Below are positions 26,167 to 40,306 of a DNA stretch of 64,000 bases, in pieces; the stretch's first letter is position 1, and each line of letters opens with the position of its first letter. The stretch covers positions 124,001-188,000 of the forward strand of contig MUZD01000005.1 of NCBI GenBank assembly GCA_002155105.1. The letters run 5' to 3'. The notes under the pieces were generated by a model. The model saw only the letters and a program-made list of their open reading frames with translations. It was not told the origin of the DNA and made no database searches. This DNA is from Sedimentibacter sp. SX930. Its GTDB lineage: Bacteria; Bacillota; Bacilli; Lactobacillales; Aerococcaceae. Both the position numbers and the translations under genes were made by a program.

Positions 26167-27021
26167 TTAGGCTTGCTTATCGTAGTTCATGCGTGCCAGC
26201 AAAAACAGACGGTGCATCCATTTTGGCATATTGAAGAAACGTTTACCTTTGTCAATTTGGGAGATTTGCTCCAAGTCAGCCTCTGTCAGTTCAACATCAA
26301 AAATATCCAGATTACTGTCTATGTGAGCCGGATTTTTCGAACCTGGAATGACAATATTTCCTGTCTGGACATGCCAATGCAGGATGATTTGCACAACGGA
26401 TTTATTGTATTTACTTGCCAATTCTGTAAAGATTGGTTCGGCAAGCAAGTCTTTGTCAGCTGAACCAAGTGGATACCAAGCTTCAAGCGCAATATTATCC
26501 TTAGCAAGTTTTGCTTTTAAATCTTTTTGTTGGAAATAAGGGTGGCATTCCACCTGCACTAAAGCAGGTTTGATGGTTCCTTCAGCCAGCACCTTATCCA
26601 ATTCAGCTCCTGTAAAGTTAGAAAGACCAATTGATTTAATCTTTCCCGTTTTTACTGCCTCTTCCATAGCTCTCCAAGCGCCTAGATAATCACCTACTGG
26701 TTGATGCAACAGCATGAGATCAAGGTAATCAACGCCTAAACGGTTCAGGGTGTCCTCAATTGCTTGCTTGGCTTTTTCATATTTATATTCTGTCGGCCAG
26801 ATTTTGGAGGTCAGGAAAATTTCACTTCGATTGATGCCTGATTTTTTGATAGCACGACCCACAGCTTTTTCATTCATGTAAATATTTGCCGTATCAATCA
26901 ATTGATACCCGTTTTTCAAGGCATGTTCCACGGAACATTCTGCATCTGTTGGACGGATCCGATACGTCCCTATCCCAAGGGTTGGAATAATCTCATTGTT
27001 ATTTAAAGTTGTATATCGCAT
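26167..27021 (-). CDS. Aldo/keto reductase
   Basis: 284 residues; NADPH-dependent carbonyl reductase of the AKR superfamily, similar to 2,5-diketogluconate or methylglyoxal reductases. The catalytic tetrad is visible: Asp in LIDTANIYMNE with its Tyr, Lys in FLTSKIWP and His in LLHQPVG. The C-terminal NADP-binding IVIPGSKNPAHI is present. ATG 27021 follows a GGAGG-type site. The gene is more AT-rich than the core genes, and together with the next gene it looks like a separately acquired pair. Substrate unknown. Confidence 0.92.
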   Translation of the reverse strand: MRYTTLNNNEIIPTLGIGTYRIRPTDAECSVEHALKNGYQLIDTANIYMNEKAVGRAIKKSGINRSEIFLTSKIWPTEYKYEKAKQAIEDTLNRLGVDYLDLMLLHQPVGDYLGAWRAMEEAVKTGKIKSIGLSNFTGAELDKVLAEGTIKPALVQVECHPYFQQKDLKAKLAKDNIALEAWYPLGSADKDLLAEPIFTELASKYNKSVVQIILHWHVQTGNIVIPGSKNPAHIDSNLDIFDVELTEADLEQISQIDKGKRFFNMPKWMHRLFLLARMNYDKQA

Positions 27022-27183
27022 TATTTCCTCCTTATTTAGTAAAATCGCTGCTATTTTTCAAAAAATAGTTGGAGCATATTGTAACTGTAATCTTGAAAGT
27101 GAAAATTGGTCTTTTGCGCATCTCCTCCACATAGTTTAACACTTTCGCAGTAACGAACAGCATCGTAAGCCTGTCCGAGTTCC

Positions 27184-27576
27184 TCACATTTTGTATGTAT
27201 CAAAATCAGTGGCTACTCGTGTATAGGTTTCGGCAGTTAATTTCCAGCCATCCTCAGTCTTTGTGAAGACTTCCGAGATGACAAAAGGATTTTGTACTTC
27301 ATTTCCCCCGATTACAGCGGTTAAGAGAAGTTTTTTGAAATTAATAGCAGTGCTGCCGTAATCCACAACGTATCCCTCTGCAATATCAACCGCTTTGAAG
27401 ATGAAGATTTTTTCGTTAAATACTTCAAGTTCCCCTGCCTTATCAAACGTGATTCCCATATGAACAAAGCGTGCGTTGTCAGCAATGAATCCTGCAACTG
27501 CGGTCATATCATTTGCTAGCTTTGCATCCCAAATTTGTGCGGAAATGCGTTGAATATCGTGTGTTGTCATAATCAT
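27184..27576 (-). CDS. NTF2-like / DUF4440 protein
   Basis: 130 residues. The pattern of an NTF2-like cone: helix IQRISAQIWDAKLANDM, then FIADNARFVHMGITFD, and three C-terminal strands ending DGWKLTAETYTRVA. Members include SnoaL-like and ketosteroid-isomerase-like proteins with varied or no enzymatic activity. Same strand as and upstream of the aldo/keto reductase, 162 bases apart. Function unknown. ATG 27576 or 27570 are equally possible. Confidence 0.75.
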   Translation of the reverse strand: MIMTTHDIQRISAQIWDAKLANDMTAVAGFIADNARFVHMGITFDKAGELEVFNEKIFIFKAVDIAEGYVVDYGSTAINFKKLLLTAVIGGNEVQNPFVISEVFTKTEDGWKLTAETYTRVATDFDTYKM

Positions 27577-27715
27577 TCTCCCCTATCATTAATAAGTGTA
27601 ATCAGGAATCAAGAGTTACATTCATTCTTGATTGTATTGATAAGCCTATTCTAAACTGTGGAGTCAGGACCATAGCAAGTGTTTCACTTATTCATATATT
27701 TCTTGCCTCGAGAGG

Positions 27716-28127
27716 GGGTTACACTTTCAATCTCTGTAACGTCTTTGTAAGTAGAGGCCAAGATAGCGATTCACCTTCATGGTGTCAGCGGTACGGTCGA
27801 AACAAATAAAAGGAAAGCAGGGAGAATGATGGACAAGACAACACAGGTGATTGATGTACTTTCGATGGGGTATGGAACTGTTCCGAGAAGTGTGATGAGT
27901 GACCGGAAGCTGACGGTCGAGGCGAAGGCGATCTATGCGTACTTTGCCGCATGCATCGGGGCCGGGGACACAAGCTTCCCCACGGTCGGCGAAATCAGCA
28001 AGGATCTGAATATGGGGAAAGATCGCTTCCAGAAGCACAAGAAAAAATTGATTGAGAAGGGGTATCTGACGATCCGAAAAGATACGGCGGCAAACGGGAG
28101 GTACAGCACGGATGTGTATGTGATTGA
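27716..28127 (+). repeat. HTH-minigene repeat, copy A (3'-truncated)
   Basis: About 412 bases shared with copies at 39546 and 47263. It starts at the common GGGTTACAC and includes the conserved leader TAGCGATTCACCTTCATGG and most of the minigene. Identity stops within the last codons (after GTGTATGTGATT), so the terminator present in the other two copies is missing. Confidence 0.9.
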
Positions 28128-28143
28128 AAATTGTCAGGAGTAA
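27826..28143 (+). CDS. Small helix-turn-helix protein, repeat copy A
   Basis: 105 residues. It has an N-terminal VLSMGYGTVPRSVM followed by a helical HTH_36-like domain (EAKAIYAYFAACIG, then FPTVGEISKDLNM as the recognition unit) and a wing-like LTIRKDTAANGRYSTD. Domains of this type occur in plasmid and phage replication or regulatory proteins. The C-terminus (ENCQE) differs from the VANG ending of the other two copies because the repeat is truncated here. The frame is intact and AGCAGGGAG gives a ribosome site. Lies directly upstream of the muconate-like operon. DNA binding is inferred only. Confidence 0.75.
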   Translation: MMDKTTQVIDVLSMGYGTVPRSVMSDRKLTVEAKAIYAYFAACIGAGDTSFPTVGEISKDLNMGKDRFQKHKKKLIEKGYLTIRKDTAANGRYSTDVYVIENCQE

Positions 28144-28236
28144 TATTAACTGGACGAAATCAATTTCCTGAAGTGAAAGCAGGCGATGACATCAAATCCG
28201 TTAAGATTAAAATATCCTCATTATTCCGGAATTATT

Positions 28237-28266
28237 TTGCAAACGCTTACCCCGGTGTGTTAAGAT
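28237..28266 (+). promoter_or_regulatory. cre site overlapping a candidate promoter
   Basis: TTGCAAACGCTTACC (28237-28251) fits the CcpA cre consensus except the last base. TTGCAA (28238-28243) can serve as -35, with TAAGAT (28261-28266) as -10 at 17 bases spacing. Transcription would start near 28273, 150 bases before the hydrolase gene, and CcpA would block it directly. Confidence 0.6.
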
Positions 28267-28331
28267 AATAAAAACGAATACGAGCCCGTCCCTAAAGAAT
28301 AAAACTAAACATTTTCATTCGACTTAGCGGA

Positions 28332-28398
28332 CACAAAGGCCTTCAGCGCATCCAACAAACATGATTGTTGGATGCGTTGGGGGCCTTTTGTGCTTTTT
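28332..28398 (+). terminator. Strong hairpin terminator inside the operon leader
   Basis: An outer stem CACAAAGGCC / GGCCTTTTGTG and a perfect inner 12-bp stem CGCATCCAACAA / TTGTTGGATGCG with 6-base loop, then CTTTTTTAT. It ends about 20 bases before the hydrolase start, downstream of the cre/promoter, so it could act as an attenuator. Confidence 0.8.
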
Positions 28399-28420
28399 TA
28401 TTCAATGAAGGAGCGCGAAT

Positions 28421-29254
28421 ATGAGAACTTATGGAGTAAAGATTGGAGACAATGAAATTCAAGTTGCGGATTATCCCGGAGAAAAGGGCCCGATTCTAGC
28501 CATTCACGGACTTACAGGAAATAAATTTCAGCTGCAGTTTTTCGCGGAGCACCTAAGCCCGCGTTACCGTGTCATCACTATGGATCTGCGGGGCAGAGGC
28601 GACAGCTCGCCAGCCGAGGAGCACTCATCCATTTTCCATCACGCAGCTGACATCAAGCTGTTGGCGGAAAAGCTGGAAATCGAAAAACCGATTGTGATGG
28701 GCTACTCCATGGGCGGCTTTGTAGCTGCTTTGGCAGCGGCCGAGATGGAAGTGCAGGCAGTGATCCTATTGGATGGGGCGGCAACGATGGATGGACACCA
28801 AAAACCGATTGTGGAACCATCCTTCTCCCGACTGGGGATACCTTTCGATACTGAAGAAGGGTACATCAATCAGGTAACCGAAAATTACGCAAACTTGAAC
28901 ATACCGCCATCGAAAAAATTAAAGGATCTGCTTGCCTATGAAGTGAAGGAAGTTGACGGGAAATGGTTCAACAAAGCCATCCCTGAAGCGATCAAAGCGG
29001 ATTGGTCAACATTTTGGCAGTTTGATGCGGGGAGGATAATAGCGAGTGTGGCCGCTCCGGTATTGTTGGTTCAGGCTGCCGGAAAGATAGGCAGCCACCC
29101 GCCTTTATTTCTACCGGAACACTATGCCGAGACTATCCGGGCAGCTAAGCAGATTCAGGTAGTGACATCGGATGCAAGCCATTACACGATGGTTTTCGAA
29201 GAGCGAGAGGATATAAACGGCTGGATCGATGCTTTTTTGGATCGAAATGAATGA
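28421..29254 (+). CDS. Alpha/beta-hydrolase (candidate enol-lactonase, PcaD/MhpC-like)
   Basis: 277 residues. The oxyanion region LAIHGLTGNKFQ is followed by RVITMDLRGRGDSS; the nucleophile elbow is GYSMGGF (Ser near 104) and the catalytic His is in SDASHYTMVF near 262. First gene of an operon with a cysteine-less CMD protein and a muconate-cycloisomerase-family enzyme. In the beta-ketoadipate pathway this position is filled by the enol-lactone hydrolase, the suggested role. Other ester or C-C bond substrates are possible. GAAGGAG precedes ATG 28421. Confidence 0.8.
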   Translation: MRTYGVKIGDNEIQVADYPGEKGPILAIHGLTGNKFQLQFFAEHLSPRYRVITMDLRGRGDSSPAEEHSSIFHHAADIKLLAEKLEIEKPIVMGYSMGGFVAALAAAEMEVQAVILLDGAATMDGHQKPIVEPSFSRLGIPFDTEEGYINQVTENYANLNIPPSKKLKDLLAYEVKEVDGKWFNKAIPEAIKADWSTFWQFDAGRIIASVAAPVLLVQAAGKIGSHPPLFLPEHYAETIRAAKQIQVVTSDASHYTMVFEEREDINGWIDAFLDRNE

Positions 29255-29282
29255 TAAAAAACATAGCAAAGGAGACCAGAGT

Positions 29283-30005
29283 ATGGCGGACGGATTAAGT
29301 TACTTCAAGCAAGTTTATGGGGAAGTTCCCGATTGGGTGAAGAAGATGCACGCCTACAGCCCCAAAATGTTGGACTACTATACTGACTTTCGCGGAGAGG
29401 CATTTAAAGAAAATGCCTTATCCAAAAAAGAAAAGGATCAATTCATTGCCAGCGCAAATGCAGGAAGGCTGTATCAGCGGAGTATGATTTACCACACTAA
29501 AGCAGCAGTCGGAAATGGATCAAGCGTTGAAGAATTAGTGGAACATTTCCTGGTGGCGTATCTTTATAAAGGAGTCGAGGCTTTACGGCTGGCGGTGCAG
29601 GCCATCGAATATGCTGCAGAGCTGACGGGACAAAATGCTCTCCAGTCTGTTTTGAGAGCAGATGCAACAGCGGTGGAACTGTTGGAACGTATAATCGCTT
29701 ATCTTCCTGTCGAACGGCAGTCGTTTACTAAAGCTGTTCTGAAATCTGTCCAGGACAACAGCGGGCGTGAGCAGCTTGAGGAAAAGGTCCTCAGCAGCGG
29801 GGCAGTGGCTTCTAAGACAAAGCATTTGAATATGGTTGCCCAATATATCACGGAGTTGAACGGCAAAGGGGCACAACCGTGGATCCAAAGAGCCCGTGAA
29901 AAAAATGCTATAGAGGCGGAACTGGCTGATGTAGGCTATATTTGCATCCTTACTGCAGGAATCCCGGCTTGGTTTGAAATCAGCGATTCATTGCTGGAAA
30001 ATTAA
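29283..30005 (+). CDS. Carboxymuconolactone-decarboxylase-like protein (tandem, cysteine-less)
   Basis: 240 residues from ATG 29283 (AAAGGAG 8 bases upstream). Mostly helical. The first unit (about 45-120) keeps the CMD/AhpD helix pattern ending HTKAAVGNGSSVEELVEH, but where AhpD has its redox CxxC it reads YQRSMIYH, so a peroxidase-type role is excluded. A second weaker helical unit covers residues 140-235. Between the hydrolase and the muconate-cycloisomerase-like gene it could perform the lactone isomerisation or decarboxylation step. This is inferred from context. Confidence 0.6.
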   Translation: MADGLSYFKQVYGEVPDWVKKMHAYSPKMLDYYTDFRGEAFKENALSKKEKDQFIASANAGRLYQRSMIYHTKAAVGNGSSVEELVEHFLVAYLYKGVEALRLAVQAIEYAAELTGQNALQSVLRADATAVELLERIIAYLPVERQSFTKAVLKSVQDNSGREQLEEKVLSSGAVASKTKHLNMVAQYITELNGKGAQPWIQRAREKNAIEAELADVGYICILTAGIPAWFEISDSLLEN

Positions 30006-30023
30006 AAAGTGGGAGTGTAAACA

Positions 30024-31142
30024 ATGACAATCAAATCTTTTCAGACTTATATTTTGGATATTCCGATTATCCGGCCGCACCAACTGTCCATGACTTTGAT
30101 CACAAAACAATCCATCGTATTGGGCTGTGCAATCAATGAAGACGGCGTGGAAGGATGGTCTGAAGTAGCCACAATCGGTGGAGCATCTTACGGCGAGAAT
30201 ACGCCGGAAGCAATCAAAGCGAATGTGGACGCCTATTTGGCTCCGATGGTGATCGGAAAAGAAGCCAAGGACTTCAATAAAATCATGGTCAACATGAATA
30301 GTGCCATAAAAGGAAACAATTATTCGAAAACTGTGGTGGAGGCGGCCCTGATTGACCTTGCCGCCCGTGAACGAAACATACCTGCCTATGATTTGCTTGG
30401 CGGGAAAGTCCATGACTCGCTTCCGTTGGCGTGGACATTGGCAAGCGGAGATACCCAAAAGGACATTGAGGAAGCAAAGGAATATTTGCGTATCAAGCGC
30501 CACAATATCTTCAAATTAAAGATAGGCAAAGGGGATCCGGCCAAAAACGTTGAGCATGTGCGGAAAATCATCCAGGCCGTGGGGAGCCAAGCGCGAATCA
30601 CCGTGGACATCAACCAGGCATGGGACGAAGATACGGCCTTCAAATTCCTCAGACCCCTTCAGGAAATGGGTGTAGCGATGGTCGAACAGCCTGTGCCGAC
30701 CTGGAACTATGAAGCCATGACCCGATTGAGCAAGCATTTCCAAGTGCCGATCATGGCGGATGAGGCATCCACCTATATCCACGAAGCCTTTTTCATCGCC
30801 AAAAACCGAGCGGGCAACGCCTTCGCCTTGAAGCCCTGCAAACACGGCGGATTGTTGGAAACGAAGAAAGTGGCGGCAATAGCGGAAGCGGTTGGCTTTG
30901 GTTTATACGGGGGGACGATGATCGAATCCTCGTTGGGAACCGCTGTCTGTGCCTCAGTCTATGCCACGATCCCTGATTTCCAGTTCGGGACCGAACTTTT
31001 TGGACCGTTGTTATACAAAGACAAAATAACCGTTCAGCAATTGGAATTTAAGGATTTTGAAATCATGATACCTGATGGACCCGGGTTCGGATTGGATGTT
31101 GACCTTGACAAGGTGAAGTTCTATGCGAGAGAATTCAAATAG
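30024..31142 (+). CDS. Muconate-cycloisomerase-family enzyme (enolase superfamily)
   Basis: 372 residues. An N-terminal capping domain, then a barrel with all MLE-subgroup catalytic residues: K164 and K166 (KLKIGKG), metal ligands D195 (TVDINQAW), E221 (VEQPVP) and D246 (MADEAS), and K270 (LKPCKHGG). The C-terminal part has GGTMIESSLGT. Typical reactions are cis,cis-muconate to muconolactone, o-succinylbenzoate synthesis and dipeptide epimerisation. With CoA-transferase, thiolase and lactonase candidates nearby, a muconate-type lactonisation is favoured. No catechol 1,2-dioxygenase is in the window. Ribosome site GTGGGAG. Confidence 0.85.
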   Translation: MTIKSFQTYILDIPIIRPHQLSMTLITKQSIVLGCAINEDGVEGWSEVATIGGASYGENTPEAIKANVDAYLAPMVIGKEAKDFNKIMVNMNSAIKGNNYSKTVVEAALIDLAARERNIPAYDLLGGKVHDSLPLAWTLASGDTQKDIEEAKEYLRIKRHNIFKLKIGKGDPAKNVEHVRKIIQAVGSQARITVDINQAWDEDTAFKFLRPLQEMGVAMVEQPVPTWNYEAMTRLSKHFQVPIMADEASTYIHEAFFIAKNRAGNAFALKPCKHGGLLETKKVAAIAEAVGFGLYGGTMIESSLGTAVCASVYATIPDFQFGTELFGPLLYKDKITVQQLEFKDFEIMIPDGPGFGLDVDLDKVKFYAREFK

Positions 31143-31173
31143 AACAACACTAAAATCAAAGGGGTAATAGGGA

Positions 31174-31515
31174 ATGAAGACAACAACAGCATTTATCAGT
31201 TCGTATGCAAAAGCACCGCTGAATACAGCACTGTCGGAAGACCATAAATACATCGGCATCATGCTGGAAATTTCAAAGGAGGACCATACTGTCGTAAATG
31301 CTGATGCCACATTCATTACGGAATTGGCGAGGGACTATTTCAAAAGACTGGTGGTGGGCTGCGTCATTACCGATAACCTTTCGCCGCTCATCAAGGAAAT
31401 AGAGGAGAACTTCCTGATTGCCACCAACAGTTCTCTGATAGTTGCCCTCAAGAGCGCCCAAAAAAAATACGCGGATCATTTTTTGTATAAAAAGGAGACA
31501 AAAGTCGAAAGATAA
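31174..31515 (+). CDS. DUF3870-type small protein, first copy
   Basis: 113 residues with no signal or membrane segment. Conserved pattern shared with the gene at 33019: AYAKAP/SYAKAP near the start, YIGIMLEI, VVNADATF, then FKRLVVG and SLIVALKSAQKKYADH. The two are clear paralogues flanking the fatty-acid-type transporter. I assign both to DUF3870 from memory of this pattern. Proteins of this kind are seen beside transport and catabolic genes in Firmicutes; no activity is known. A GGGG-type site precedes ATG 31174. Confidence 0.7.
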   Translation: MKTTTAFISSYAKAPLNTALSEDHKYIGIMLEISKEDHTVVNADATFITELARDYFKRLVVGCVITDNLSPLIKEIEENFLIATNSSLIVALKSAQKKYADHFLYKKETKVER

Positions 31516-31545
31516 AGGATCTATACGAACAGGAGGAGGTATAGC

Positions 31546-32952
31546 GTGGCTAGCCAATATAAAAATACGGAAGATGTACTGCATCAATCAGTGGAAAAGA
31601 AAAATTTTTTCCGGAAGCTTACGGATGGTCTTATCAGCATCATGCAAAAGTATTTGCCCAGCTCGTTTGTGCTGGCATTGATTTTAGCGTTCACTGTATT
31701 TGTGGTTGGGATTGTTTTTACGGAGAGCACGATGATGGATATGGTCGATTACATCGGAACGGGGATGTTTGAACTTGTGGGGTTCACGATGCAGATGGTA
31801 CTGATCTTGGTGACGGGCCATGCGCTGGCCAATTCACCGATTGTGCTGCGCTTCTTGCGCAAGTTGGCCCATATCCCTAAAAATCGCGTTTCCGCAGTCG
31901 TTTTTACAGCCTTTGTCTCTTATCTGTGCACGTATCTGCATTGGGGCTTTGGTCTTGTTGCGGGCGCACTGCTGGCAAAAGAAATCGCCACGATCAATTA
32001 TGGGAAGAAAATACACTATCCGATCCTGGTTGCGGCTGCGTATAGCGGCAATATAGCGCGTGGACCTTCGTCTTCTATTTTTTTGGGCCCGACCAGTGCC
32101 GGCCATGCGGCGGAGGGAGTCGTCGGCATCATTCCGTTGTCGGATACGTTGCTGATGCCTGAGAACATACTGATGACACTGGTTTTGCTGCTGATCATTC
32201 CGATTGTCTATAAATTTATGACGCCTCGGGCCGAAGAGAGTTTGGAAATTCATGCAAACATTCTGGAGAATGACCGTGCGAATGAAAACGATGCTGCTAA
32301 ACGGCGGGATGCAGAAGCCCAATCGGCTACCTTGGCTGAGAAATTGGACAACAGCAAACTGGTTGCTTGGATCATTCCGGCGATTGTAAGCGTTTATATT
32401 GTCGGTTATTTCTCCAAAGTCGGATTCCTGGGCCTGGATATCAACACGATCATCCTGATTTTTCTGGTGTTGGGCATGTTTGCGCATCAAACCCCGAATC
32501 GGTACGCAGCAGCACTAAAGAGCGCCACTGCCACTGCGGACAGTATGATTCTGCAATTTCCGATCTATGCAGCCATCATGGTCATGCTGCGCGAAACGGG
32601 GATGGCGGGCGCAATCTCGGACTTTTTTGTTAACATATCCAATGCTGACACGCTGCCGCTGTATACTTTCTACAGCTCCTCGCTGATTAATTTCTTCATC
32701 CCTTCCGGGGGCGGATTATGGGCCATCCAAGGACCTATAGCGCTCCGGGCCGCTACGGAGCTGCATGCCTCAATCGAGGCCACGATGGTCGGGTTAGCTT
32801 GGGGGGATACTTGGAGTTCGCAAATCCAACCGTTTTGGGCTTTACCTCTCTTAGCGATTGCGGGATTGGATGTCAAAGACATCATGGGTTATTGTGCCAT
32901 GATTTTTTTGGTATCCGGAGTGGTCATTTCGGGTTTCCTGCTCATTATGTAG
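31546..32952 (+). CDS. Short-chain fatty acid transporter, AtoE-like
   Basis: 468-residue integral membrane protein with about ten to twelve hydrophobic segments. Family features include GHALANSPIVLRFL, a SSSIFLGPTSAGHA motif and the C-terminal NFFIPSGGGLWAIQGP. AtoE-type proteins move acetoacetate or short-chain acids. GTG 31546 follows AGGAGGAGG by 6 bases. Placed between two DUF3870 paralogues and near AtoD/AtoA/thiolase genes, it probably imports a keto-acid substrate of this pathway or exports an acid product. Confidence 0.88.
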   Translation: MASQYKNTEDVLHQSVEKKNFFRKLTDGLISIMQKYLPSSFVLALILAFTVFVVGIVFTESTMMDMVDYIGTGMFELVGFTMQMVLILVTGHALANSPIVLRFLRKLAHIPKNRVSAVVFTAFVSYLCTYLHWGFGLVAGALLAKEIATINYGKKIHYPILVAAAYSGNIARGPSSSIFLGPTSAGHAAEGVVGIIPLSDTLLMPENILMTLVLLLIIPIVYKFMTPRAEESLEIHANILENDRANENDAAKRRDAEAQSATLAEKLDNSKLVAWIIPAIVSVYIVGYFSKVGFLGLDINTIILIFLVLGMFAHQTPNRYAAALKSATATADSMILQFPIYAAIMVMLRETGMAGAISDFFVNISNADTLPLYTFYSSSLINFFIPSGGGLWAIQGPIALRAATELHASIEATMVGLAWGDTWSSQIQPFWALPLLAIAGLDVKDIMGYCAMIFLVSGVVISGFLLIM

Positions 32953-33018
32953 AAGGCTGCACTGCGCAGCTGCGCGCATGAATAAAACAACTGATTAAAA
33001 AAGGAAAGAGGGATCGCT

Positions 33019-33339
33019 TTGGAATTGGACACAGTACTGGTGACCGCGTACGCGAAAGCGCCGCAACAGACAGCCTATTATGAAATCTATAAATATGTCG
33101 GGGTTGTTCTGGAAATCGACATAAAAACACATATTGTGGTGGATGCATCGGCTACATTCATGACACCGACCGCTCAAAATTATTTCTCGCGGTTGGTAGT
33201 CGGGACAAATTTTGAAGAAGAAATCAGCGGGTTGTTGGAACGGGTCAAAAAACACTACTTAGCGCCTTCACAAAACTCATTGCTAGTGGCATTGAAAGTG
33301 GCCCATCAGCGCTATGCGGATAGCTTGAGGAGTTTGTGA
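33019..33339 (+). CDS. DUF3870-type small protein, second copy
   Basis: 106 residues from TTG 33019 (AAAGAGGG 6 bases upstream). Paralogue of 31174-31515 with the same motif order: TAYAKAPQQTA, YVGVVLEID, VVDASATF, FSRLVVG and SLLVALKVAHQRYAD. The two copies are strongly diverged, so this is an old duplication or two separate acquisitions rather than a recent tandem copy. Last gene of the first transcript of the muconate-like cluster. Function unknown. Confidence 0.7.
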   Translation: MELDTVLVTAYAKAPQQTAYYEIYKYVGVVLEIDIKTHIVVDASATFMTPTAQNYFSRLVVGTNFEEEISGLLERVKKHYLAPSQNSLLVALKVAHQRYADSLRSL

Positions 33340-33420
33340 AATATATTTTGGTTTAAAATGTTAATAGTTATTATGATAATATACTTGCAATCGGATTGGG
33401 AATATGTTTTAATATACATA

Positions 33421-33435
33421 TAGCAAACGCTTACA
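33421..33435 (+). promoter_or_regulatory. cre-like site before the dicarboxylate transporter operon
   Basis: TAGCAAACGCTTACA differs from the cre consensus at one position. Just upstream, TTGCAA and TAATAT spaced 19 bases may form the promoter, putting cre at or just after the start point. Confidence 0.55.
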
Positions 33436-33494
33436 ACTTCATATGTCTCATTACTGAACGTTGGAATCAGGATTCCAATTTAATTCGGTAATAT

Positions 33495-33550
33495 AAAGGC
33501 CTTTTGGATCAGCATTTTCTCAGAAAATGCTGATCAGAGAGGCCTTTTTC
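33495..33550 (+). terminator. Leader terminator before the dicarboxylate transporter
   Basis: Outer AAAGGCC / GGCCTTT and an inner 14-bp stem GATCAGCATTTTCT / AGAAAATGCTGATC, followed by TTTC-TGTTTTTC. It lies about 100 bases before the gene and downstream of the cre/promoter, as in the 28332 leader. Confidence 0.8.
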
Positions 33551-33649
33551 TGTTTTTCAAATGATACGGGTTGCTGCAGAAAGGGCGTGGAAACAGCAAA
33601 ATCAGCTGGATGCATGTAAGAAGTTGACATCATATAGGAGGAAGAAAAA

Positions 33650-35140
33650 ATGAGTGAAATCATTGCAGAAAAAGAAAAAAAAATCTCAAAAGAAAAAGTG
33701 CACAGCAAAACCATCTTCAACTACATCATCGGCCCTTTACTATTTGGCATCATCATGCTGTTGCCGATACCGGGGTTGAGTTTTGAAGGGAAAACAGTCT
33801 TGGCTACCTTGATCTGGATGGTGGCTTGGTGGATAGCCAATCCTTTTCCGGCGGGGGCCATTTCGTTGTTGCCCATCGTCATCCTGCCTTTAATGAACGC
33901 ATTGCCGGGTCCGGTCACTGCAAAAGCATACGGCGATCCGCTGAATTTTTTGTTCCTGGGTGGTTTTGCGATAGCGTTGGCTTTGGAAAAATGGAACTTG
34001 CATGAACGTATCTCCATCAACATCATCGGGGCCTTCAGCGGCAGCACATCCGGAATGGTAACGGGAATGCTAATCTCCTCGTTTTTCATTTCCATGTGGG
34101 TATCCAACACAGCAACAGCGATGATGCTTTTGCCGATTGGGACAGCTATGGCGGCTAAAGTGGTGACTTTGATGCAGCAAGAAGAGGACTACACCGAAAA
34201 GGACGGGAAAAATTTCACCACTTCGATTGTTTTGGGGATCGCTATCGGTGCCACCATCGGGGGATCCTCGACGTTGATCGGGACGCCTCCCAACCTGATC
34301 CTTGCTGGATTGGCCTCTCAGTTGTACGGCATTGAAATTCCTTTCGGAAAATGGATGCTCTTCGCTTTGCCGCTGACTGCGATCCTATTGGCCGTGACTA
34401 TATTCGTCATGACGAAATTTGTTTTTCCGGTAAAAATCAAAAAGTTGCAGAACGGTCAAAGCTTCATCAAAGAAGAAAAAATCAGGATAGGGAAAATGAC
34501 CTATGAGGAGAAAGTGGTCACAGGCATTTTCGTACTGACGATTTTCCTTTGGCTGACAAGAACGTTCATTTGGACAAAATTTGTGCCGGGAATGTCCGAC
34601 ACGATGATCGCTATCTTTGCGGGAATTCTGATTTTTGCATGGCCGGCATCCAAAAAGAATGGCGGAAAGATTCTCAATGCGGATGCTTTCGGGAAAATGC
34701 CATGGAGTGTTCTGCTGATGATCGGCGGCGGCCTCGCGATTGCAGAAGGGTTTCAGCAGACGGACTTGGCACAATGGATCGGCAACCAGCTGTTGGCTTT
34801 GCAAGGTGCTTCTTACTTCGCAATCTTGATTGCTTGTTGTGCGCTGGCGCTGGTCATGACCCAAGTCGCACCTAACACGGCCACGACAACAATCCTGGTC
34901 CCTATCGCTTCGTCATTAGCGGTTGCGGTAGGCGTCGATCCGATTCCGGTCATGGTCATCACGGCTCTGGGAGCAGGTTTCGCCTACATGCTGCCGATCG
35001 GAACGCCGACATTTGGAGTCGTCTACGCTTCCGGTAAAATAGATATGAACGACATGATCAAAATGGGCGGAATCATCGTAATCGCCGCGTTCTTCTTGTT
35101 GATTGGCTTTGTATATTATATCTATCCAATAATTTTCTAA
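33650..35140 (+). CDS. DASS/SLC13 family anion:Na+ symporter
   Basis: 496 residues with a charged N-terminus (1-25) and about eleven membrane segments. Both substrate-binding motifs of the family are recognisable: SNTATAMMLLP near residue 155 and APNTATTTILVP near 405; GAGFAYMLPIGTP follows. Such transporters carry C4-C6 di- and tricarboxylates, which fits import of muconate, beta-ketoadipate or a similar diacid for the downstream CoA-transferase, thiolase and BKACE enzymes. The exact substrate is inference. AGGAGG precedes ATG 33650. Confidence 0.88.
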   Translation: MSEIIAEKEKKISKEKVHSKTIFNYIIGPLLFGIIMLLPIPGLSFEGKTVLATLIWMVAWWIANPFPAGAISLLPIVILPLMNALPGPVTAKAYGDPLNFLFLGGFAIALALEKWNLHERISINIIGAFSGSTSGMVTGMLISSFFISMWVSNTATAMMLLPIGTAMAAKVVTLMQQEEDYTEKDGKNFTTSIVLGIAIGATIGGSSTLIGTPPNLILAGLASQLYGIEIPFGKWMLFALPLTAILLAVTIFVMTKFVFPVKIKKLQNGQSFIKEEKIRIGKMTYEEKVVTGIFVLTIFLWLTRTFIWTKFVPGMSDTMIAIFAGILIFAWPASKKNGGKILNADAFGKMPWSVLLMIGGGLAIAEGFQQTDLAQWIGNQLLALQGASYFAILIACCALALVMTQVAPNTATTTILVPIASSLAVAVGVDPIPVMVITALGAGFAYMLPIGTPTFGVVYASGKIDMNDMIKMGGIIVIAAFFLLIGFVYYIYPIIF

Positions 35141-35158
35141 AAAGGGGAGTACTAGTAA

Positions 35159-35845
35159 ATGAGCAAAGTAAAAGATAACATTCAAGAGGTTTTATCGGTA
35201 TTGAAAGATGGAGATACGATTTTGGTCGGAGGGTTCGGCCTAATCGGGGCACCTTTATCTTTGGTCGAGGGTTTGATCGAGAAAGATGTAAAAGGGCTGA
35301 CTGTCGTCAGCAATAACTTGGGCGAAGCCGGCAAAGGCTTGGGCAAACTGCTGAACCAAGGCAAAATCGCGAAAGGAATCGGCTCCTACTTTACCAGCAA
35401 CCGTGATGTCGGCGATGCTTATCAACGCGGAGAAATTGAGTTGGAGTTGAATCCGCAAGGTACGCTGGCGGAAAGAATGCGCGCAGGCGGAGCAGGCATT
35501 CCGGCTTTCTACACGCCTACAGCGCAAGGGACGGATCTGGCCATCGGCAAAGAGGAACGCGATTTTGACGGGAAAAAATATGTCATGGAAACGGGTCTGC
35601 GCGGCAATGTCGCCCTGATTCGTGCCCACAAAGCCGATAAACTCGGCAACTTGGTCTACTACAAGACCGCCAGCAATTTCAATCCGGTGATGGCGACTGC
35701 AGCGGATTATGTCATTGCTGAAGTGGACGAAATTGTGGAAGTCGGCGAAATAGATCCGGAATCAGTCATCACACCACACCTGTATGTGGATGCAATCGTA
35801 GTAGCTACAGAAATTTTAACGAAGGATGGAGTGGTCAGCAAATGA
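35159..35845 (+). CDS. 3-oxoacid CoA-transferase subunit A
   Basis: 228 residues. Typical alpha subunit: start region LKDGDTILVGGFGLIGAPLSL with the glycine-rich CoA-binding loop, VVSNNLGEAGKGLG, AERMRAGGAGIPAFYTP and the C-terminal GEIDPESVITPHLYVD. It forms an A2B2 enzyme with the next gene, moving CoA between a donor acyl-CoA and a 3-oxoacid (acetoacetate or 3-oxoadipate). Overlaps the B subunit by four bases (ATGA). AAGGGGAG upstream of ATG 35159. Confidence 0.92.
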   Translation: MSKVKDNIQEVLSVLKDGDTILVGGFGLIGAPLSLVEGLIEKDVKGLTVVSNNLGEAGKGLGKLLNQGKIAKGIGSYFTSNRDVGDAYQRGEIELELNPQGTLAERMRAGGAGIPAFYTPTAQGTDLAIGKEERDFDGKKYVMETGLRGNVALIRAHKADKLGNLVYYKTASNFNPVMATAADYVIAEVDEIVEVGEIDPESVITPHLYVDAIVVATEILTKDGVVSK

Positions 35846-36498
35846 GTAAAAATGAAGGAATCCAACATATCATTGCACAACGCGCGGCAAAGGAATTGGT
35901 AGGACCGATTATAGTCAACCTAGGGATTGGTGTTCCGACACTTATTCCCGACTACCTGACGGATGACACTGTCTATCTCCATACGGAAAACGGCATGCTG
36001 GGCGTCGGGCCGGCCGACTCAGAAAACAGCGATCCCAACTTGGTGAATGCAGGGAAACTGCCTGTTTCGGAAATGAAGGGTTCTTCTTATTTCAACAGCG
36101 CTGAATCCTTTGGCATGATCCGTGGCGGTCACGTAGATGTGGCGATATTGGGTGTGCTACAGGCCGATCAACAGGGCCGCATCGCAAACTGGTCCGTCCC
36201 TGGAAAGAACATCATCGGCGTAGGCGGAGCGATGGATCTGCTGAGCGGGGCTAAAAAAGTGATCTGTACGATGAGCCATACCACTAAAGACGGGGAACCG
36301 AAAATCTTGAAGGAATGTGCGTATCCGATCACCTCCACCCGCAAAGTGGACATGCTGATCACTGAATTAGCGGTATTCATTTTTGAAGAAGGCCGCATGA
36401 AACTGATCGAGCTGATGCCAGGCGCTACTTTGGAAGAAATTGAAGCCAAAACAGAAGCCGAATTCATCAATGCGCTTGAAGGCGTAAGCGTAAACTAA
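35842..36498 (+). CDS. 3-oxoacid CoA-transferase subunit B
   Basis: 218 residues. The beta subunit carries the catalytic Glu in LHTENGMLGVGP, and the flanking IVNLGIGVPTLIPDY and FGMIRGGHVDVAILGVLQ segments are standard. Reaction: 3-oxoacid plus succinyl-CoA or acetyl-CoA gives 3-oxoacyl-CoA plus free acid. With a BKACE gene in the operon, acetoacetate is a plausible acceptor; 3-oxoadipate is the alternative. Translationally coupled to subunit A. Confidence 0.93.
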   Translation: MSKNEGIQHIIAQRAAKELVGPIIVNLGIGVPTLIPDYLTDDTVYLHTENGMLGVGPADSENSDPNLVNAGKLPVSEMKGSSYFNSAESFGMIRGGHVDVAILGVLQADQQGRIANWSVPGKNIIGVGGAMDLLSGAKKVICTMSHTTKDGEPKILKECAYPITSTRKVDMLITELAVFIFEEGRMKLIELMPGATLEEIEAKTEAEFINALEGVSVN

Positions 36499-36520
36499 AA
36501 GACTTAGGGGGAAATCAAGA

Positions 36521-37729
36521 ATGAAAAATGTAGTGATTGTGGATTCCGTCAGGACAGCTATCGGAAAGCTTGGCGGGGCAATGAAGGATGTTACCGCCGA
36601 TTATTTGGGGGAATATGTTATCCGGGAATTATTGGAACGCACGCAAGTGGATGCCAACGAAATCGATGAAGTCATTTTGGGGCAGGCTAAGCAGAGTGCG
36701 GATATTTCGAACGTGGCGCGGGTATCTTCGTTGCGGGCGGGGCTTCCGTTGTCGGTGCCAGGCTATACTCTGCACAGACAATGCGGATCGGGACTTCAAT
36801 CGATCAATTCGGCAGTGCAACAGATTCAATCGGAAAATGCTGATATCGTCATCGCTGGCGGCGTTGAATCCATGAGTACAGCACCTTATTATGTGAGTGG
36901 TGTGCGTTTCGGGGTGACCGCAGGGAATGTGGAGCTGAAGGATCCGAACACCGCCAGTCAGCCGGGATCGCAGCCGCAGGAAGTCTATGGGACTGCCATC
37001 ACGATGGGTTGGACTTCCGACAACATCGCCAAACAATATGAAATCACGCGCGAAGAACAGGATGCCTATGCCTTGCGCTCACAGCAAAGAGCGCAGCATG
37101 CCATTGAAGTGGGTCTCTTTGCGGATCAGATTGTGCCTGTCGAAATGAAGCAGCGCAAAAAAGTAATCACCTTCAACGTGGATGAACATCCGCGCGAGAC
37201 AACGATGGAAGCTCTGGCTAAATTGAGACCGGTCTTCAGTCCGGACGGCACAACGACAGCCGGTAATGCCAGTGGCCGGAATGATGGAGCGGCTGCGCTG
37301 CTGGTCATGTCTGAAGATAAGGCGAAAGAACTGGGTTATACAAAAGGTGTGCGTGTAGTTGCCCAAGCGGCAGTGGGCGTAGATCCCGTCACAATGGGAT
37401 TGGGGCCAATCCCGGCCACCCGCAAAGCACTGGAAAAAGCCGGACTGACTATCGACGACATCGACGTGGTGGAACTGAACGAAGCGTTCGCTGCGCAAAC
37501 TTTGGCCTTCTTCAAGGAATTCAACCTTCCTTATGATTCCGAAAAAGTGAATCCGAACGGCGGGGCGATTGCGTTGGGCCATCCAATCGGCGCCACCGGG
37601 GCCATCCTGATGACGAAGTTGATGCATGAACTGCACAGGACCGGCAAACGTTATGGCTTGGTAACCTTATGCATCGCAGGCGGGATCGGCATCGCGACAA
37701 TTGTGGAAAATCTTTCCGTATCGGAATAA
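36521..37729 (+). CDS. Acetyl-CoA/3-oxoadipyl-CoA thiolase
   Basis: 402 residues. Catalytic C88 is in LHRQCGSGLQS, the active-site His in GGAIALGHPIGATGA (about 358), and the second Cys in CIAGGIGIA (about 388). NEAFAAQTLA is present. It cleaves a 3-oxoacyl-CoA with CoA: acetoacetyl-CoA to two acetyl-CoA, or 3-oxoadipyl-CoA to succinyl-CoA plus acetyl-CoA. Sequence alone does not separate these. TAGGGGG upstream of ATG 36521; between the CoA-transferase and the BKACE gene. Confidence 0.92.
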   Translation: MKNVVIVDSVRTAIGKLGGAMKDVTADYLGEYVIRELLERTQVDANEIDEVILGQAKQSADISNVARVSSLRAGLPLSVPGYTLHRQCGSGLQSINSAVQQIQSENADIVIAGGVESMSTAPYYVSGVRFGVTAGNVELKDPNTASQPGSQPQEVYGTAITMGWTSDNIAKQYEITREEQDAYALRSQQRAQHAIEVGLFADQIVPVEMKQRKKVITFNVDEHPRETTMEALAKLRPVFSPDGTTTAGNASGRNDGAAALLVMSEDKAKELGYTKGVRVVAQAAVGVDPVTMGLGPIPATRKALEKAGLTIDDIDVVELNEAFAAQTLAFFKEFNLPYDSEKVNPNGGAIALGHPIGATGAILMTKLMHELHRTGKRYGLVTLCIAGGIGIATIVENLSVSE

Positions 37730-37742
37730 AGAAGCTGATCCT

Positions 37743-38612
37743 ATGGAGACAGAAAAAAAGGTTAATAAAACCATCATCACTGTTGCTCTGACGGGGTCAC
37801 AAGGGACAAAGAAACTGAATCCGAATACCCCTGTCTCATGCGATGAAATAATTGAGGATGCCTACCAGTGTTATCTGAACGGGGCTGCAATTGTGCATAT
37901 CCATGTGAAGGCGGATGACGGAATCCATGTCGAAATCGACAATGAAAAGTTTGCGTACATCAAAGCAGGAATCCAAAGAAAATGCGATCTGATCGTGAAC
38001 TTCACCACTTCCGGCGAGATGAATCATTTTGAAGGGCTGGATCTTATCGGTACTGCGGACGGGCAGCAGGACAAACGGATTGGTATTTTGGATACGCATC
38101 CGGAAATAGCCACCTTCGATGTTCCGACCATGAACTTCGGAGAGCGTATCTTTATGAATCCTCTGCCTTTTCTCAGGAACCTGGGCAAGAAAATGCAGGA
38201 ACTGAAAATTCTGCCGGAGGTCGAAATCTACAATCGCGGGGATATCGGTCTGGCTGAACAGCTGATCGAGGAAGGCGTCATCCCTGCAGATTCTTTCTTT
38301 CAACTGTGCTTGGGGATCAAAGGCGGGACGCCGGCCACAGTCAAAGACCTGGTGTATCTGACGGAAGCGCTGCCCCCGAATGTGAGCTGGAGTGCTTTCG
38401 GTGTGGGTGCAGACCACATGCGCATTATGTATGCCACTCTAGCTTTGGGTGGAAATATCAGGGTGGGATTGGAAGACAATCTCTACTATACCAAAGGCTG
38501 CTTGACATCTAATGCAGAGCTTGTGAAACGCGCAGCACGCTTAATCAGGGAGTACGGGAATGAAGTCGCTACTTCAAACGAAGCCAGGGGGATATTAAAG
38601 TTATCCAACTAA
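37743..38612 (+). CDS. Beta-keto acid cleavage enzyme (BKACE / Kce family)
   Basis: 289 residues from ATG 37743. The BKACE zinc site is seen as H52-x-H54 (AIVHIHVKADDG), with LNPNTPVSCDEI before it and NIRVGLEDNLYYTKG near the end. The family condenses a beta-keto acid with acetyl-CoA, releasing acetoacetate and a shortened CoA ester; substrates vary among members. Here a beta-ketoadipate-type substrate would give succinyl-CoA plus acetoacetate, which the neighbouring CoA-transferase and thiolase could finish. Weak ribosome site; 13 bases after the thiolase stop. Confidence 0.88.
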   Translation: METEKKVNKTIITVALTGSQGTKKLNPNTPVSCDEIIEDAYQCYLNGAAIVHIHVKADDGIHVEIDNEKFAYIKAGIQRKCDLIVNFTTSGEMNHFEGLDLIGTADGQQDKRIGILDTHPEIATFDVPTMNFGERIFMNPLPFLRNLGKKMQELKILPEVEIYNRGDIGLAEQLIEEGVIPADSFFQLCLGIKGGTPATVKDLVYLTEALPPNVSWSAFGVGADHMRIMYATLALGGNIRVGLEDNLYYTKGCLTSNAELVKRAARLIREYGNEVATSNEARGILKLSN

Positions 38613-38869
38613 TGATTCAATGAAGTAAGAACAATACAGCCTTCCGCTAATTTCGAAAAGTTGCAATTTACTTTTAAACGGATTACAAAGAAACTGTCAT
38701 AAACGTTGTAGAAATCGTAAAGTTCGGGAGTAGCGAACCCGCTATCTCCGCGGACTAGAGTATCGCTGACAGGAACCACTTGGGTGTAATGCTCAAAATG
38801 AGGCTCTACAAAAGCGCTAATGCCAGTAGATGTGTAGACGTTATCAGAACTGTTTGTTTTGCAAGACAT
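38609..38869 (-). pseudogene. IS1380-type transposase fragment
   Basis: An 86-codon frame reading YTSTGISAFVEP, QVVPVSDTLVRGDSGFATPELYD and FFVIRLKVNCNFSKLAEG, which I recognise as the catalytic-core pattern (RGDSGFA with the acidic residue) of IS1380-family DDE transposases. The true start and the C-terminal third are missing, and no inverted repeats are seen, so it is a relic. It lies right behind the BKACE gene, between catabolic module and repeat copy B. Confidence 0.65.
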
Positions 38870-39008
38870 TCTACTTGAAGCTGATAACTTGCCTGGTTGC
38901 TTCCTGTAACTGGTTATAAAAAAGGAACAGATATTTTGTGATTTCTTAAAGCTAACGTTTTGTATTAAACAACCAGTCGGTTTGTGTTGATATTACCGTG
39001 TCGTGTAT

Positions 39009-39040
39009 GGGTCCTTCAGGTTGCTGAAGGGCCCTGTTTT
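39009..39040 (+). terminator. Terminator hairpin in the relic region
   Basis: GGGTCCTTCAG / CTGAAGGGCCC with 4-base loop, then TGTTTTC. Could end the muconate-like operon about 400 bases after BKACE. Confidence 0.7.
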
Positions 39041-39110
39041 CAATAGATTTGCCTTCAACAGCATCAGGCTTCTCTGCTCAAGGGATGTATAAGAAAGTCT
39101 TCAAAAAATA

Positions 39111-39160
39111 AAAGGCATGAAATTACTCGACAGAGGTAACTTCATGCCTTTCATCATTGT
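39111..39160 (-). terminator. Terminator for the decayed MFS copy
   Basis: AAAGGCATGAA / TTCATGCCTTT with inner TTAC/GTAA pairing; the T-run (TTTTATTTTTT) follows on the minus strand, matching the orientation of the MFS relic. Confidence 0.7.
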
Positions 39161-39194
39161 TTTGATCTTGTAATCCCGGAGTCATAAAATTGGA

Positions 39195-39500
39195 CTCAAG
39201 GATATTTTTCATCGAGACAGTTTGGATCAAAGAACTGTAGGTAATGAGCTTGAAGCTGGGGTTTTTATCGGCCACTTAGGTGATAGCGGTGCTGAGCGGC
39301 AGGATGGTAAAACAAGCACTCATAAGCCCCAAGTACGTTGTGGAATATGCGTAGAGCGTATGGTACCCATGAGCATGGTCAACTTGTAGGCAAACATCAG
39401 CACTGTTTTCCCATCCATAAAGAACTGAAGCTCATTTCTTGGATTAAGTTTGGCGGCCTCATAATCTGTTTTCAGCAAGTAATTCACTTTACCTGGATTT
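39195..39500 (-). pseudogene. Decayed copy of the MFS transporter
   Basis: Matches the intact MFS gene (24460-25611) in three blocks: the extreme C-terminus; the block equivalent to 24598-24700; and that equivalent to 24924-25090. The first junction corresponds to a deletion between two TGGATCA repeats present in the intact gene, and the second removes about 220 bases. The readable part includes NPRNELQFFMDGKTVLMFAY, against DLKNELQFFKDGKTLLLLAY in the intact protein. The N-terminal half is absent. It abuts repeat copy B. Confidence 0.8.
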
Positions 39501-39655
39501 GTCAAAGACAATCAAGATTAACCTGGGACTTTAGGGAAATTTTTTGGGTTACACATTCAATCTCCTCTCCGTCTTTATTAGTAGAGACCAAGATAGCGAT
39601 TCACCTTCATGGTGTCAACGGTACGGTCAAAACAAATAAACGGAAAGCAGGGAGA

Positions 39656-39979
39656 ATGATGGACAAGACAACACAGGTGATTGATGTACTTTCGATGGGG
39701 TATGGAACTGTTCCGAGAAGTGCTATGAGTGATCGGAAGCTGACGGTCGAGGCGAAGGCAATCTATGCGTACTTTGCCGCATGCATCGGGGCCGGAGACA
39801 CAAGCTTCCCCACGGTCGGCGAAATCAGCAAGGATCTCAACATGTGCGAGGAACGATTCCGGAAGCATCAGAAAAACTTGATTGAAAGAGGATATCTGAC
39901 AATCCGAAAGAATGCAGCGGCAAACGGCAGATACAGCACGAACGTGTATGTGATCCAGGAACGGGTTGCCAACGGATAA
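39656..39979 (+). CDS. Small helix-turn-helix protein, repeat copy B
   Basis: 107 residues. Residues 1-60 are nearly identical to the other copies (VLSMGYGTVPRSAM, EAKAIYAYFAACIG). From about residue 62 the recognition helix and wing differ (NMCEERFRKHQKNLIERGY instead of NMGKDRFQKHKKKLIEKGY), with many silent changes as well, yet the frame stays open to the common VANG end. This mosaic suggests gene conversion of the 5' half or two lineages. The frame is open well upstream of 39656, but ATG 39656/39659 with GCAGGGAG is the shared start. Confidence 0.75.
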   Translation: MMDKTTQVIDVLSMGYGTVPRSAMSDRKLTVEAKAIYAYFAACIGAGDTSFPTVGEISKDLNMCEERFRKHQKNLIERGYLTIRKNAAANGRYSTNVYVIQERVANG

Positions 39980-40008
39980 AATAGAACAGAAAATCCAACA
40001 TACGAAGA

Positions 40009-40047
40009 ACTGCCCTGAACCAAAAATGGTTTAAGGCAGTCCTTTTC
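40009..40047 (+). terminator. Terminator within repeat copy B
   Basis: ACTGCC..GAACC and GGTTTAAGGCAGT around AAAAAT, then CCTTTTC; the equivalent structure occurs in copy C. Confidence 0.8.
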
Positions 40048-40206
40048 ACATAACCAAAGAAATGATTGTGGCTCCACCTCCTTTCCAGGCTGTTGGCGGA
40101 GGCCATCCTCAAATAAGAAATCATCATCGAATAGACACAGCTTGAACTGGAGATCGAGTGCGAAATGGAACTGCCAAGAGGACAATCGTGGTGTTAGGTA
40201 GTTTTA

Positions 40207-40234: not shown

Positions 40235-40306
40235 ATAATTAATATTAGGACGAGGGAAGCTTTAGTAGGAAGCTCGTGTCCAAAGTTGCCTAGAAAGGAA
40301 CTAAAC

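Follow-up and report, generated by a model that had tools for sequence, protein, structure and literature searches.

A probable catechol-pathway lower segment without ring cleavage, carried on a strain-variable cassette in Sedimentibacter sp. SX930 and possibly adapted to muconate fermentation

Gene content of the locus

We analysed a gene cluster at positions 28421-38612 of a 64-kb window (the whole 64,000-nucleotide stretch examined here, positions 124001-188000 of contig MUZD01000005.1) from Sedimentibacter sp. SX930, whose assembly, G000, comprises 3.13 Mb in 37 contigs and is 98.35% complete. The cluster holds eleven intact genes, all on the + strand, most of them with a ribosome-binding-site-like sequence 5' of the start, and centres on a muconate cycloisomerase (MLE) surrounded by candidate enzymes for the later steps of the beta-ketoadipate pathway. 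Unit 1 runs from a hydrolase through a CMD-family protein, MLE, a DUF3870 protein and an AtoE-type permease to a second DUF3870 protein, and unit 2 from an SLC13-type carrier through CoA-transferase subunits A and B and a thiolase to a BKACE enzyme, with no regulator gene inside either unit. Gaps within units are at most 66 nt, and a 310-nt gap with a hairpin precedes position 33650.

28421..29254, + strand: alpha/beta hydrolase, candidate enol-lactone (3-oxoadipate) hydrolase; PF00561
29283..30005, + strand: two-domain CMD-family protein, candidate muconolactone isomerase replacing CatC; PF02627, 39.7 bits, cut-off 23
30024..31142, + strand: muconate cycloisomerase (MLE/CatB type); TIGR02534, 446.3 bits, cut-off 334.95
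31174..31515, + strand: DUF3870 protein; PF12986
31546..32952, + strand: AtoE-type permease (short-chain fatty acid/acetoacetate type); PF02667
33019..33339, + strand: second DUF3870 protein; PF12986
33650..35140, + strand: SLC13/DASS-type anion carrier, candidate muconate importer; TIGR00785, 262.7 bits, cut-off 198.6
35159..35845, + strand: 3-oxoacid CoA-transferase subunit A; TIGR02429, 266 bits, cut-off 128.5
35842..36498, + strand: 3-oxoacid CoA-transferase subunit B; TIGR02428, 278 bits, cut-off 243.55
36521..37729, + strand: thiolase (acetoacetyl-CoA/3-oxoadipyl-CoA type); TIGR01930, 479 bits, cut-off 240.55
37743..38612, + strand: BKACE, candidate 3-oxoadipate:acetyl-CoA cleavage enzyme; PF05853, 280.2 bits

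An earlier note, made from the DNA letters alone, had described this region as a muconate-type operon in two adjacent transcripts, which fits the gap sizes, the 310-nt gap with its hairpin and the single copy of a 12-mer found before each unit. Every gene it named is an intact + strand open reading frame. The starts of the CMD and BKACE genes lie at 29283 and 37743 and not at upstream in-frame starts, and its list had left the two DUF3870 members unnamed.

Identity of the encoded proteins

In profile searches, MLE scored at most 108.4 bits against all models listed other than TIGR02534, and its closest solved relatives are muconate and chloromuconate cycloisomerases. The KxK motif, the three metal-ligand acids and the further catalytic lysine are all present at the positions that had been named before (K164, K166, D195, E221, D246 and K270), with roles that we assume from the superfamily. 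The active-site loop reads TIGGxxYG, matching the CatB-like rows, and differs from the SVGGPTW loop of six rows (L021-L026, Paraburkholderia xenovorans and others); we take the former to be the muconate type and the latter the chloromuconate type. A dipeptide epimerase or o-succinylbenzoate (OSB) synthase identity, which the earlier note had named as the finding that would speak against it, was ruled out: MLE lies above the TIGR02534 cut-off and scores far lower on the models of those enzymes, so this objection fails. MLE is thus a member of the muconate cycloisomerase family, with predicted activity on cis,cis-muconate.

In a midpoint-rooted tree in which several long branches were flagged, the window MLE and that of G036, a single-contig genome of the same family, are sisters (support 100/99), nested in a Bacilli clade of 21 rows (100/100) whose two main branches both include loci with catA; within it, the window MLE groups with the Jeotgalicoccus/Salinicoccus type (99/94). 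The simplest reading of this tree would be that catA was lost or never transferred. For the hydrolase, identity is 41-49% with the types of G036, Planococcus and Bacillus but 28-30% with the Jeotgalicoccus/Salinicoccus type, and since it thus lies near the Planococcus/Bacillus type while MLE groups with the other, the cluster is a mosaic.

Residues S96, D118 and H254 of the hydrolase are invariant across 14 aligned sequences, and its predicted structure (predicted local distance difference test score, pLDDT, 94.7) matched generic alpha/beta hydrolases, including the small-dicarboxylate hydrolases 3kxp (rank 3) and 4l0c (rank 26). The CMD-family protein, whose predicted structure (pLDDT 90.7) found its best folds in 4g9q and 2q0t and is consistent with the family assignment, is a candidate replacement for CatC, the muconolactone isomerase. 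An AhpD peroxidase identity was rejected for this protein because the CxxC redox pair, presumably a requirement of AhpD-type peroxidases, is present in none of 11 aligned CMD rows read by eye; the fold did not enter into this rejection.

Both CoA-transferase subunits exceed the 3-oxoacid CoA-transferase subfamily cut-offs and, together with the thiolase, are homologous to E. coli AtoD/AtoA and AtoB (44-50% identity). The AtoE-type permease, 38% identical to E. coli AtoE and at 395 bits below the TIGR00366 cut-off of 575.75, could transport acetoacetate or short acids. For the SLC13-type carrier the closest solved chains belong to the SLC13 family (205.7 bits), followed by VcINDY (about 143 bits), and muconate would be its predicted cargo. 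A search for solved relatives of DUF3870 gave none that was meaningful. Its gene lies immediately 3' of MLE in several Bacilli, and among five plasmid matches the three in Bacilli all adjoin MLE, with the two from outside Bacilli located near other acid or CoA genes. The idea that DUF3870 is a regulator replacing IclR, which had rested on the joint presence of DUF3870 and hairpins in the window, G036, L001, L002 and L126, was dropped because Priestia plasmids pair DUF3870 with an annotated XylR-type gene and catA, and because those two non-Bacilli loci adjoin acid/CoA genes of other kinds.

Ring cleavage and CatC are missing, and orthologous operons carry catA

Searching the whole 3.13-Mb assembly, we found no match to the intradiol dioxygenase family PF00775 and none to CatC (PF02426, muconolactone isomerase), in line with the earlier note, which had seen no CatA, CatC or PcaGH in the stretch. 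CatC was found in 0 of 16 genomes (15 MLE-bearing genomes plus G068, a same-species genome with no close MLE), so its absence is not special to G000. PF00775 was sought in 21 MLE-bearing Bacilli genomes, namely G000, G036, 13 from a first locus search and six new ones from a class-wide search in which 8 of 398 class genomes matched (G000 and G625 being repeats). It was above cut-off in 16 of the 21 (weakly in G076, 41.8 bits) and not found in G000, G036, G077 (Cytobacillus kochii), G086 (Peribacillus cavernae) and G725. As G036 is assembled in one contig, the dioxygenase absence there is not an assembly gap.

Among the 21 MLE loci of Bacilli, which include the window and the contig-edge locus L006 (no cluster neighbours shown) and from which L122 was dropped as a repeat of L003, catA is present within 12, always with CoA-transferase genes. 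Four of these (L003, L012, L124 and L125) share the order catA, hydrolase, in some cases a carrier, CMD, CoA-transferase A/B, MLE and thiolase; in L127, MLE lies ahead of catA and a thiolase match was not obtained. Seven loci of Jeotgalicoccus, Salinicoccus and Lacicoccus have the order MLE, catA, DUF3237, hydrolase-like gene, CoA-transferase A/B and thiolase. MLE clusters are also carried by plasmids of Peribacillus sp. R9-11, Priestia megaterium NCT-2 and Priestia aryabhattai, on which the hydrolase, a 'cyclase family' gene, CMD, CoA-transferase A/B, MLE, DUF3870 and thiolase stand between two dioxygenase genes. Further genes are interspersed in all three, several of them separating the first dioxygenase from the hydrolase in Peribacillus; the Priestia plasmids add a 4-hydroxyphenylacetate 3-hydroxylase-type gene and the Peribacillus plasmid a UbiD-type decarboxylase.

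Hence, the full hydrolase/CMD/CoA-transferase/MLE/thiolase set occurs near catA in seven Bacilli loci, three of them on plasmids, which makes muconate the probable substrate, with its lactone or 3-oxoadipate as alternatives; ancestrally, the substrate was probably muconate derived from catechol. The genes are thus found together in other genomes, so that the second objection foreseen in the earlier note fails as regards co-occurrence, while for co-regulation the analysis covered the 12-mer shared by the two units. The note's view of a muconate-type lower ortho-cleavage route lacking a ring-cleavage dioxygenase is supported by gene content and co-occurrence. Its suggestion that the true substrate may be novel has lost ground, as the catechol-dioxygenase-bearing orthologous operons point to plain muconate.

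Two side observations concern further genes of these operons. The 'cyclase family protein' gene lies between hydrolase and CMD at 9222-9911 in L135, 9211-9903 in L136 and 7211-7903 in L137. The DUF3237 gene lies between catA and hydrolase at 12047-12514 in L004, with counterparts in L005, L007-L010 and L044; the genomes with this operon gave no CatC or CMD match, and DUF3237 is a candidate second CatC substitute.

Close relatives of the window cluster are rare. At E <= 1e-60, MLE was found in 2 of 395 same-order genomes, G000 and G036, and among the 76 genomes of the same family G036 gave the only close match (72%; all others at most 31%). No paper among the open-access literature matches listed describes a CatA-less muconate cluster in this order. 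In G036 the genes run hydrolase, DUF3870, carrier, CMD, MLE, AtoE, CoA-transferase A/B and thiolase, preceded by a divergent BKACE gene and with a PucR-type regulator gene close to the far side. Gene order and base composition (48% and 34% G+C) differ between G036 and the window; identities are 63-82% for AtoE, MLE, CoA-transferase A/B, thiolase and BKACE and 44-49% for hydrolase, CMD and carrier. Across nine genes compared with G036, the proportion of nonsynonymous differences (pN, 0.11-0.37) is well below that of synonymous ones (pS, 0.79-0.92, saturated), and the proteins are therefore functional and not decaying.

BKACE and the supply of succinyl-CoA

The window BKACE retains the HIH motif and RVGLEDN, the HxH/Glu set of which we take to be the metal motif, and its gene starts 13 nt behind the thiolase. 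In Kce, the BKACE enzyme of lysine fermentation, a Glu binds the 5-amino group of the substrate, and a Trp stands in its place in the phloroglucinol enzyme, as PMC10470551 describes. A Gln of the window protein aligns with this Glu, where position 20 of the Kce chain was taken as Glu14 on the basis of a 6-residue tag. A Kce identity was rejected, given this Gln and a score below the Kce cut-off. The BKACE family has a beta-ketoadipate group, and beta-ketoadipate is a listed substrate, according to PMC4922564.

Using the window protein as query (E <= 0.001), we obtained BKACE matches in 2 of the 16 genomes, G000 and G036. The E1 component of 2-oxoglutarate dehydrogenase and the alpha subunit of succinyl-CoA synthetase (SucD) were above cut-off in 13 of the 16 and not above it in G000, G036 and G068. 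BKACE thus coincides with the MLE-bearing genomes that lack both enzymes (Fisher p 0.0095 over 15 MLE-bearing genomes, a value that ignores kinship), and because it occurs only in these two cluster-bearing genomes, we propose it as a source of succinyl-CoA. A second G036 copy lies at G036:C1:1172044-1172877, about 15 kb from MLE.

The cluster as strain-variable cargo

The cluster lies between two copies of a repeat that carries an HTH_36-type gene.

27716..28125, + strand: repeat copy 1 with HTH_36-type gene, forming the left cassette boundary
39546..40046, + strand: repeat copy 2, forming the right cassette boundary

The repeat is 0.4-0.5 kb long, and a third copy lies at 47262-47763. Between copies 2 and 3 there is a BglG/phosphotransferase system (PTS)/aldolase-like set, a neighbour cassette at 41425-47124 with a BglG-type regulator, PTS IIB/IIC and an aldolase-like gene, as named by reading translations. 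The same-species genome G068 has a single repeat copy in this region and neither insert; beyond this copy the DNA matches that to the right of copy 3 (about 96% identity), and about 1.9 kb of other DNA separates the copy from the left flank. The site is occupied by other DNA in two congeners, L117 and L118, and in a third (L120) the left flank runs almost directly into the sequence right of copy 3. None of 12 other same-genus genomes (one of them same-species, two only 63% and 51% complete) gave a close MLE match. Since the same-species genome has no insert and congeners have other DNA there, the cluster is strain-variable cargo at a hot spot.

Candidate regulatory sites

Each unit is preceded by one copy of an exact 12-mer and by a hairpin with a U-tract.

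28239..28250, + strand: GCAAACGCTTAC, candidate catabolite-responsive element (cre)/LacI-like operator before unit 1; exact 12-mer
28335..28395, + strand: leader hairpin with U-tract, candidate attenuator, 32 nt ahead of the hydrolase start; fold z -8.25
33423..33434, + strand: GCAAACGCTTAC, second copy, before unit 2; exact 12-mer
33495..33556, + strand: inter-unit hairpin with U-tract, unit 1 terminator and/or unit 2 attenuator; fold z -7.39

These two copies of the 12-mer, labelled by what we take to be the cre consensus, are the only sites in the window even if one mismatch is allowed, and two or more matches arose in 3 of 100 shuffles. A looser cre-like consensus was not enriched (10 found, 7.07 expected). 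The 12-mer does not stand ahead of the G036 operon, where a single match with two mismatches at 13121 is at chance level, and conservation of the operator is therefore not established.

The hairpins at 33495 and 28335 head the list of short-range inverted repeats in the window. Rfam gave no match within 26000-41400, and within 26000-40000 neither terminator-like sites (14 found, 15.7 in shuffles) nor promoter-like sites exceeded shuffles as a class. In G036 a similar U-tract hairpin (z -6.05), identified by reading and folding and not by the automated scan, lies just before the hydrolase; as the gene upstream is divergent, it cannot be that gene's terminator. L001 and L126 have comparable ones. 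Beside those of the window, terminator-like hairpins thus precede first genes at L074 (about 14073-14145), L001 (9836-9903) and L126 (2380-2422), in MLE clusters that have no linked IclR gene, and none was seen ahead of ten operons of the catA or IclR type. Among 13 leaders lacking a co-directional upstream gene, a set picked after seeing the data, three have a U-tract hairpin (G036 hydrolase, L001 MLE and L126 carrier) and ten do not (L003, L004, L005, L007, L008, L009, L010, L044, L123 and L125); eight of these ten have an IclR gene beside the operon, and in L008 and L010 it is further off. Regulator genes, the leaders of BKACE in G036 and of DUF3870 in L126, and every co-directional leader, both window units included, do not enter this count. 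Against a background of 5 of 72 unlabelled divergent genes and 28 of 84 co-directional genes with hairpins, transcription attenuation is a plausible lead, picked after the fact, and the window hairpins could be plain terminators of the preceding genes.

Discussion

We put the probability at about 0.6 that the cluster came in as a cassette, is the lower segment of a catechol pathway without its ring-cleaving step, and has been adapted to muconate fermentation. Muconate from other microbes would be imported through the SLC13-type carrier and lactonised by MLE, whereupon the CMD-fold protein would convert muconolactone to the enol-lactone and the alpha/beta hydrolase would release 3-oxoadipate. 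From here, two routes may lead on. Along route (a), CoA-transferase and thiolase would act on 3-oxoadipate, with succinyl-CoA donating CoA and being regenerated. Along route (b), BKACE would turn 3-oxoadipate and acetyl-CoA into succinyl-CoA and acetoacetate, the latter passing to acetyl-CoA through CoA-transferase and thiolase. Both would have the same net outcome, 3-oxoadipate + CoA -> succinate + acetyl-CoA, and route (b) would let a cell that has no other obvious source obtain its initial succinyl-CoA from acetyl-CoA. The gene sets for both BKACE cleavage and 3-oxoadipyl-CoA thiolysis occur in the cluster. Overall, muconate + 2 H2O would yield succinate + acetate in a redox-neutral conversion, with about one ATP if acetate kinase is assumed; atoms and available electrons balance (22 = 22) for the corresponding acids. 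We infer all substrates, the isomerase role of CMD, the priming role of BKACE, import and export, and regulation. A fuller version, in which a dedicated fermentation takes up the ring-cleavage acid of neighbours, uses a CMD-fold isomerase and BKACE priming, and has both units under an operator and an attenuating leader, is tentative, and we would rather doubt it as a whole.

Several observations weigh against this reading. CMD, hydrolase and BKACE reach no specific-family cut-off: the hydrolase, earlier called lactonase-type, is so at the level of fold and not of specific family (55.4 bits on the PcaD enol-lactonase model TIGR02427, cut-off 255.85), and BKACE scores 200.9 bits (G036 copy 194) on the 3-oxoadipate model NF053568 (cut-off 350), below its 262.6 bits on the Kce model NF052387 (cut-off 382). 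The thiolase stays at 438 bits on the 3-oxoadipyl-CoA thiolase (pcaF) model TIGR02430, cut-off 597, and in structural Z the AhpD chains draw level with the best matches of the CMD model. Jeotgalicoccus/Salinicoccus operons have DUF3237 and no CMD, which means that CMD cannot stand in for CatC in every case. Among the loci compared, AtoE is close to MLE solely in G000 and G036, and the link between BKACE and succinyl-CoA comes from two genomes of one family.

Among rival explanations, it is doubtful, though conceivable, that canonical CoA transfer and thiolysis of 3-oxoadipate carry the flux and that the operon contains BKACE by chance, with another beta-keto acid as its substrate: CoA-transferase A is 64-73% and the thiolase 62-68% identical to those of catA-bearing loci (48-50% for the Jeotgalicoccus/Salinicoccus type), none of which has a BKACE match, yet BKACE directly follows the thiolase in the window and lies at the head of the G036 operon, and the search of 13 further MLE-bearing genomes gave no match to it. 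A different small acid as substrate, one that is a lactone or can be lactonised (a substituted muconate, a muconolactone or a 3-oxo-acid taken up directly), with MLE acting on an analogue, would suit the sub-threshold scores of CMD, hydrolase and BKACE and two Cytobacillus loci that group only MLE, DUF3870 and carrier, with CMD elsewhere in the genome. We consider it unlikely in view of the muconate-type loop and residues of MLE and of orthologues whose neighbours include catechol dioxygenase genes and genes of phenol or hydroxyaryl-acid type.

A plain relic, i.e., an aerobic catechol operon that was left without catA by transfer or trimming and has no settled role, beside which BKACE and AtoE serve unrelated acetoacetate metabolism, would account for the place of MLE in a Bacilli clade many of whose loci bear catA and for the 12 same-genus genomes and the insert-free same-species genome that lack it. 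This is quite improbable, as all genes are intact, pN is far below pS, and the set extended by AtoE and BKACE recurs in G036 with a different gene order and base composition. A dipeptide epimerase, N-acylamino acid racemase or OSB synthase context shares the superfamily with MLE, a 28%-identical paralogue of which lies elsewhere in the genome, but the gap between 108.4 and 446.3 bits and a cluster free of such genes leave it hardly credible.

Compared with known systems, the cluster shares MLE, CoA-transferase, thiolase and an alpha/beta hydrolase of the enol-lactonase kind of fold with the catechol branch of the beta-ketoadipate pathway (catB-catC-catD, pcaIJF), from which it differs by a CMD-fold isomerase candidate in place of CatC, by the added BKACE and AtoE and by having no regulator gene inside its units. 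As two defining features of the canonical branch, CatA and CatC, were not found in G000, we class it as a variant of that pathway. The catechol operons of Bacilli (Planococcus L003, Metabacillus L012, Priestia plasmids L136 and L137) have orthologous hydrolase, CMD, CoA-transferase A/B, MLE and thiolase and, in some, DUF3870 or the SLC13 carrier; unlike the window they have catA, in Planococcus a linked IclR gene, and no BKACE was found in them. E. coli atoDAEB has homologues of CoA-transferase, AtoE and thiolase (38-50% identity), but no MLE, hydrolase, CMD or BKACE. The fermentative phloroglucinol pathway of Clostridium scatologenes likewise combines a BKACE-family enzyme with CoA-transferase and thiolase, a set that feeds substrate-level ATP synthesis without oxygen, whereas its substrate and ring opening are different and its BKACE has Trp where the window has Gln and Kce has Glu (PMC10470551).

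The cluster thus appears to present known enzymes in a new arrangement, the lower beta-ketoadipate pathway joined with BKACE and AtoE in an apparent Bacilli fermenter. If this is true, an unrelated fold would do a CatC-type step in Bacilli, and BKACE would have a simple metabolic rationale, namely to supply the initial succinyl-CoA in cells that lack 2-oxoglutarate dehydrogenase and succinyl-CoA synthetase. Fermenters would then run a portion of aromatic ortho-cleavage without oxygen, and muconate would be a possible cross-feeding currency passed from aerobic ring-cleavers to anaerobes.

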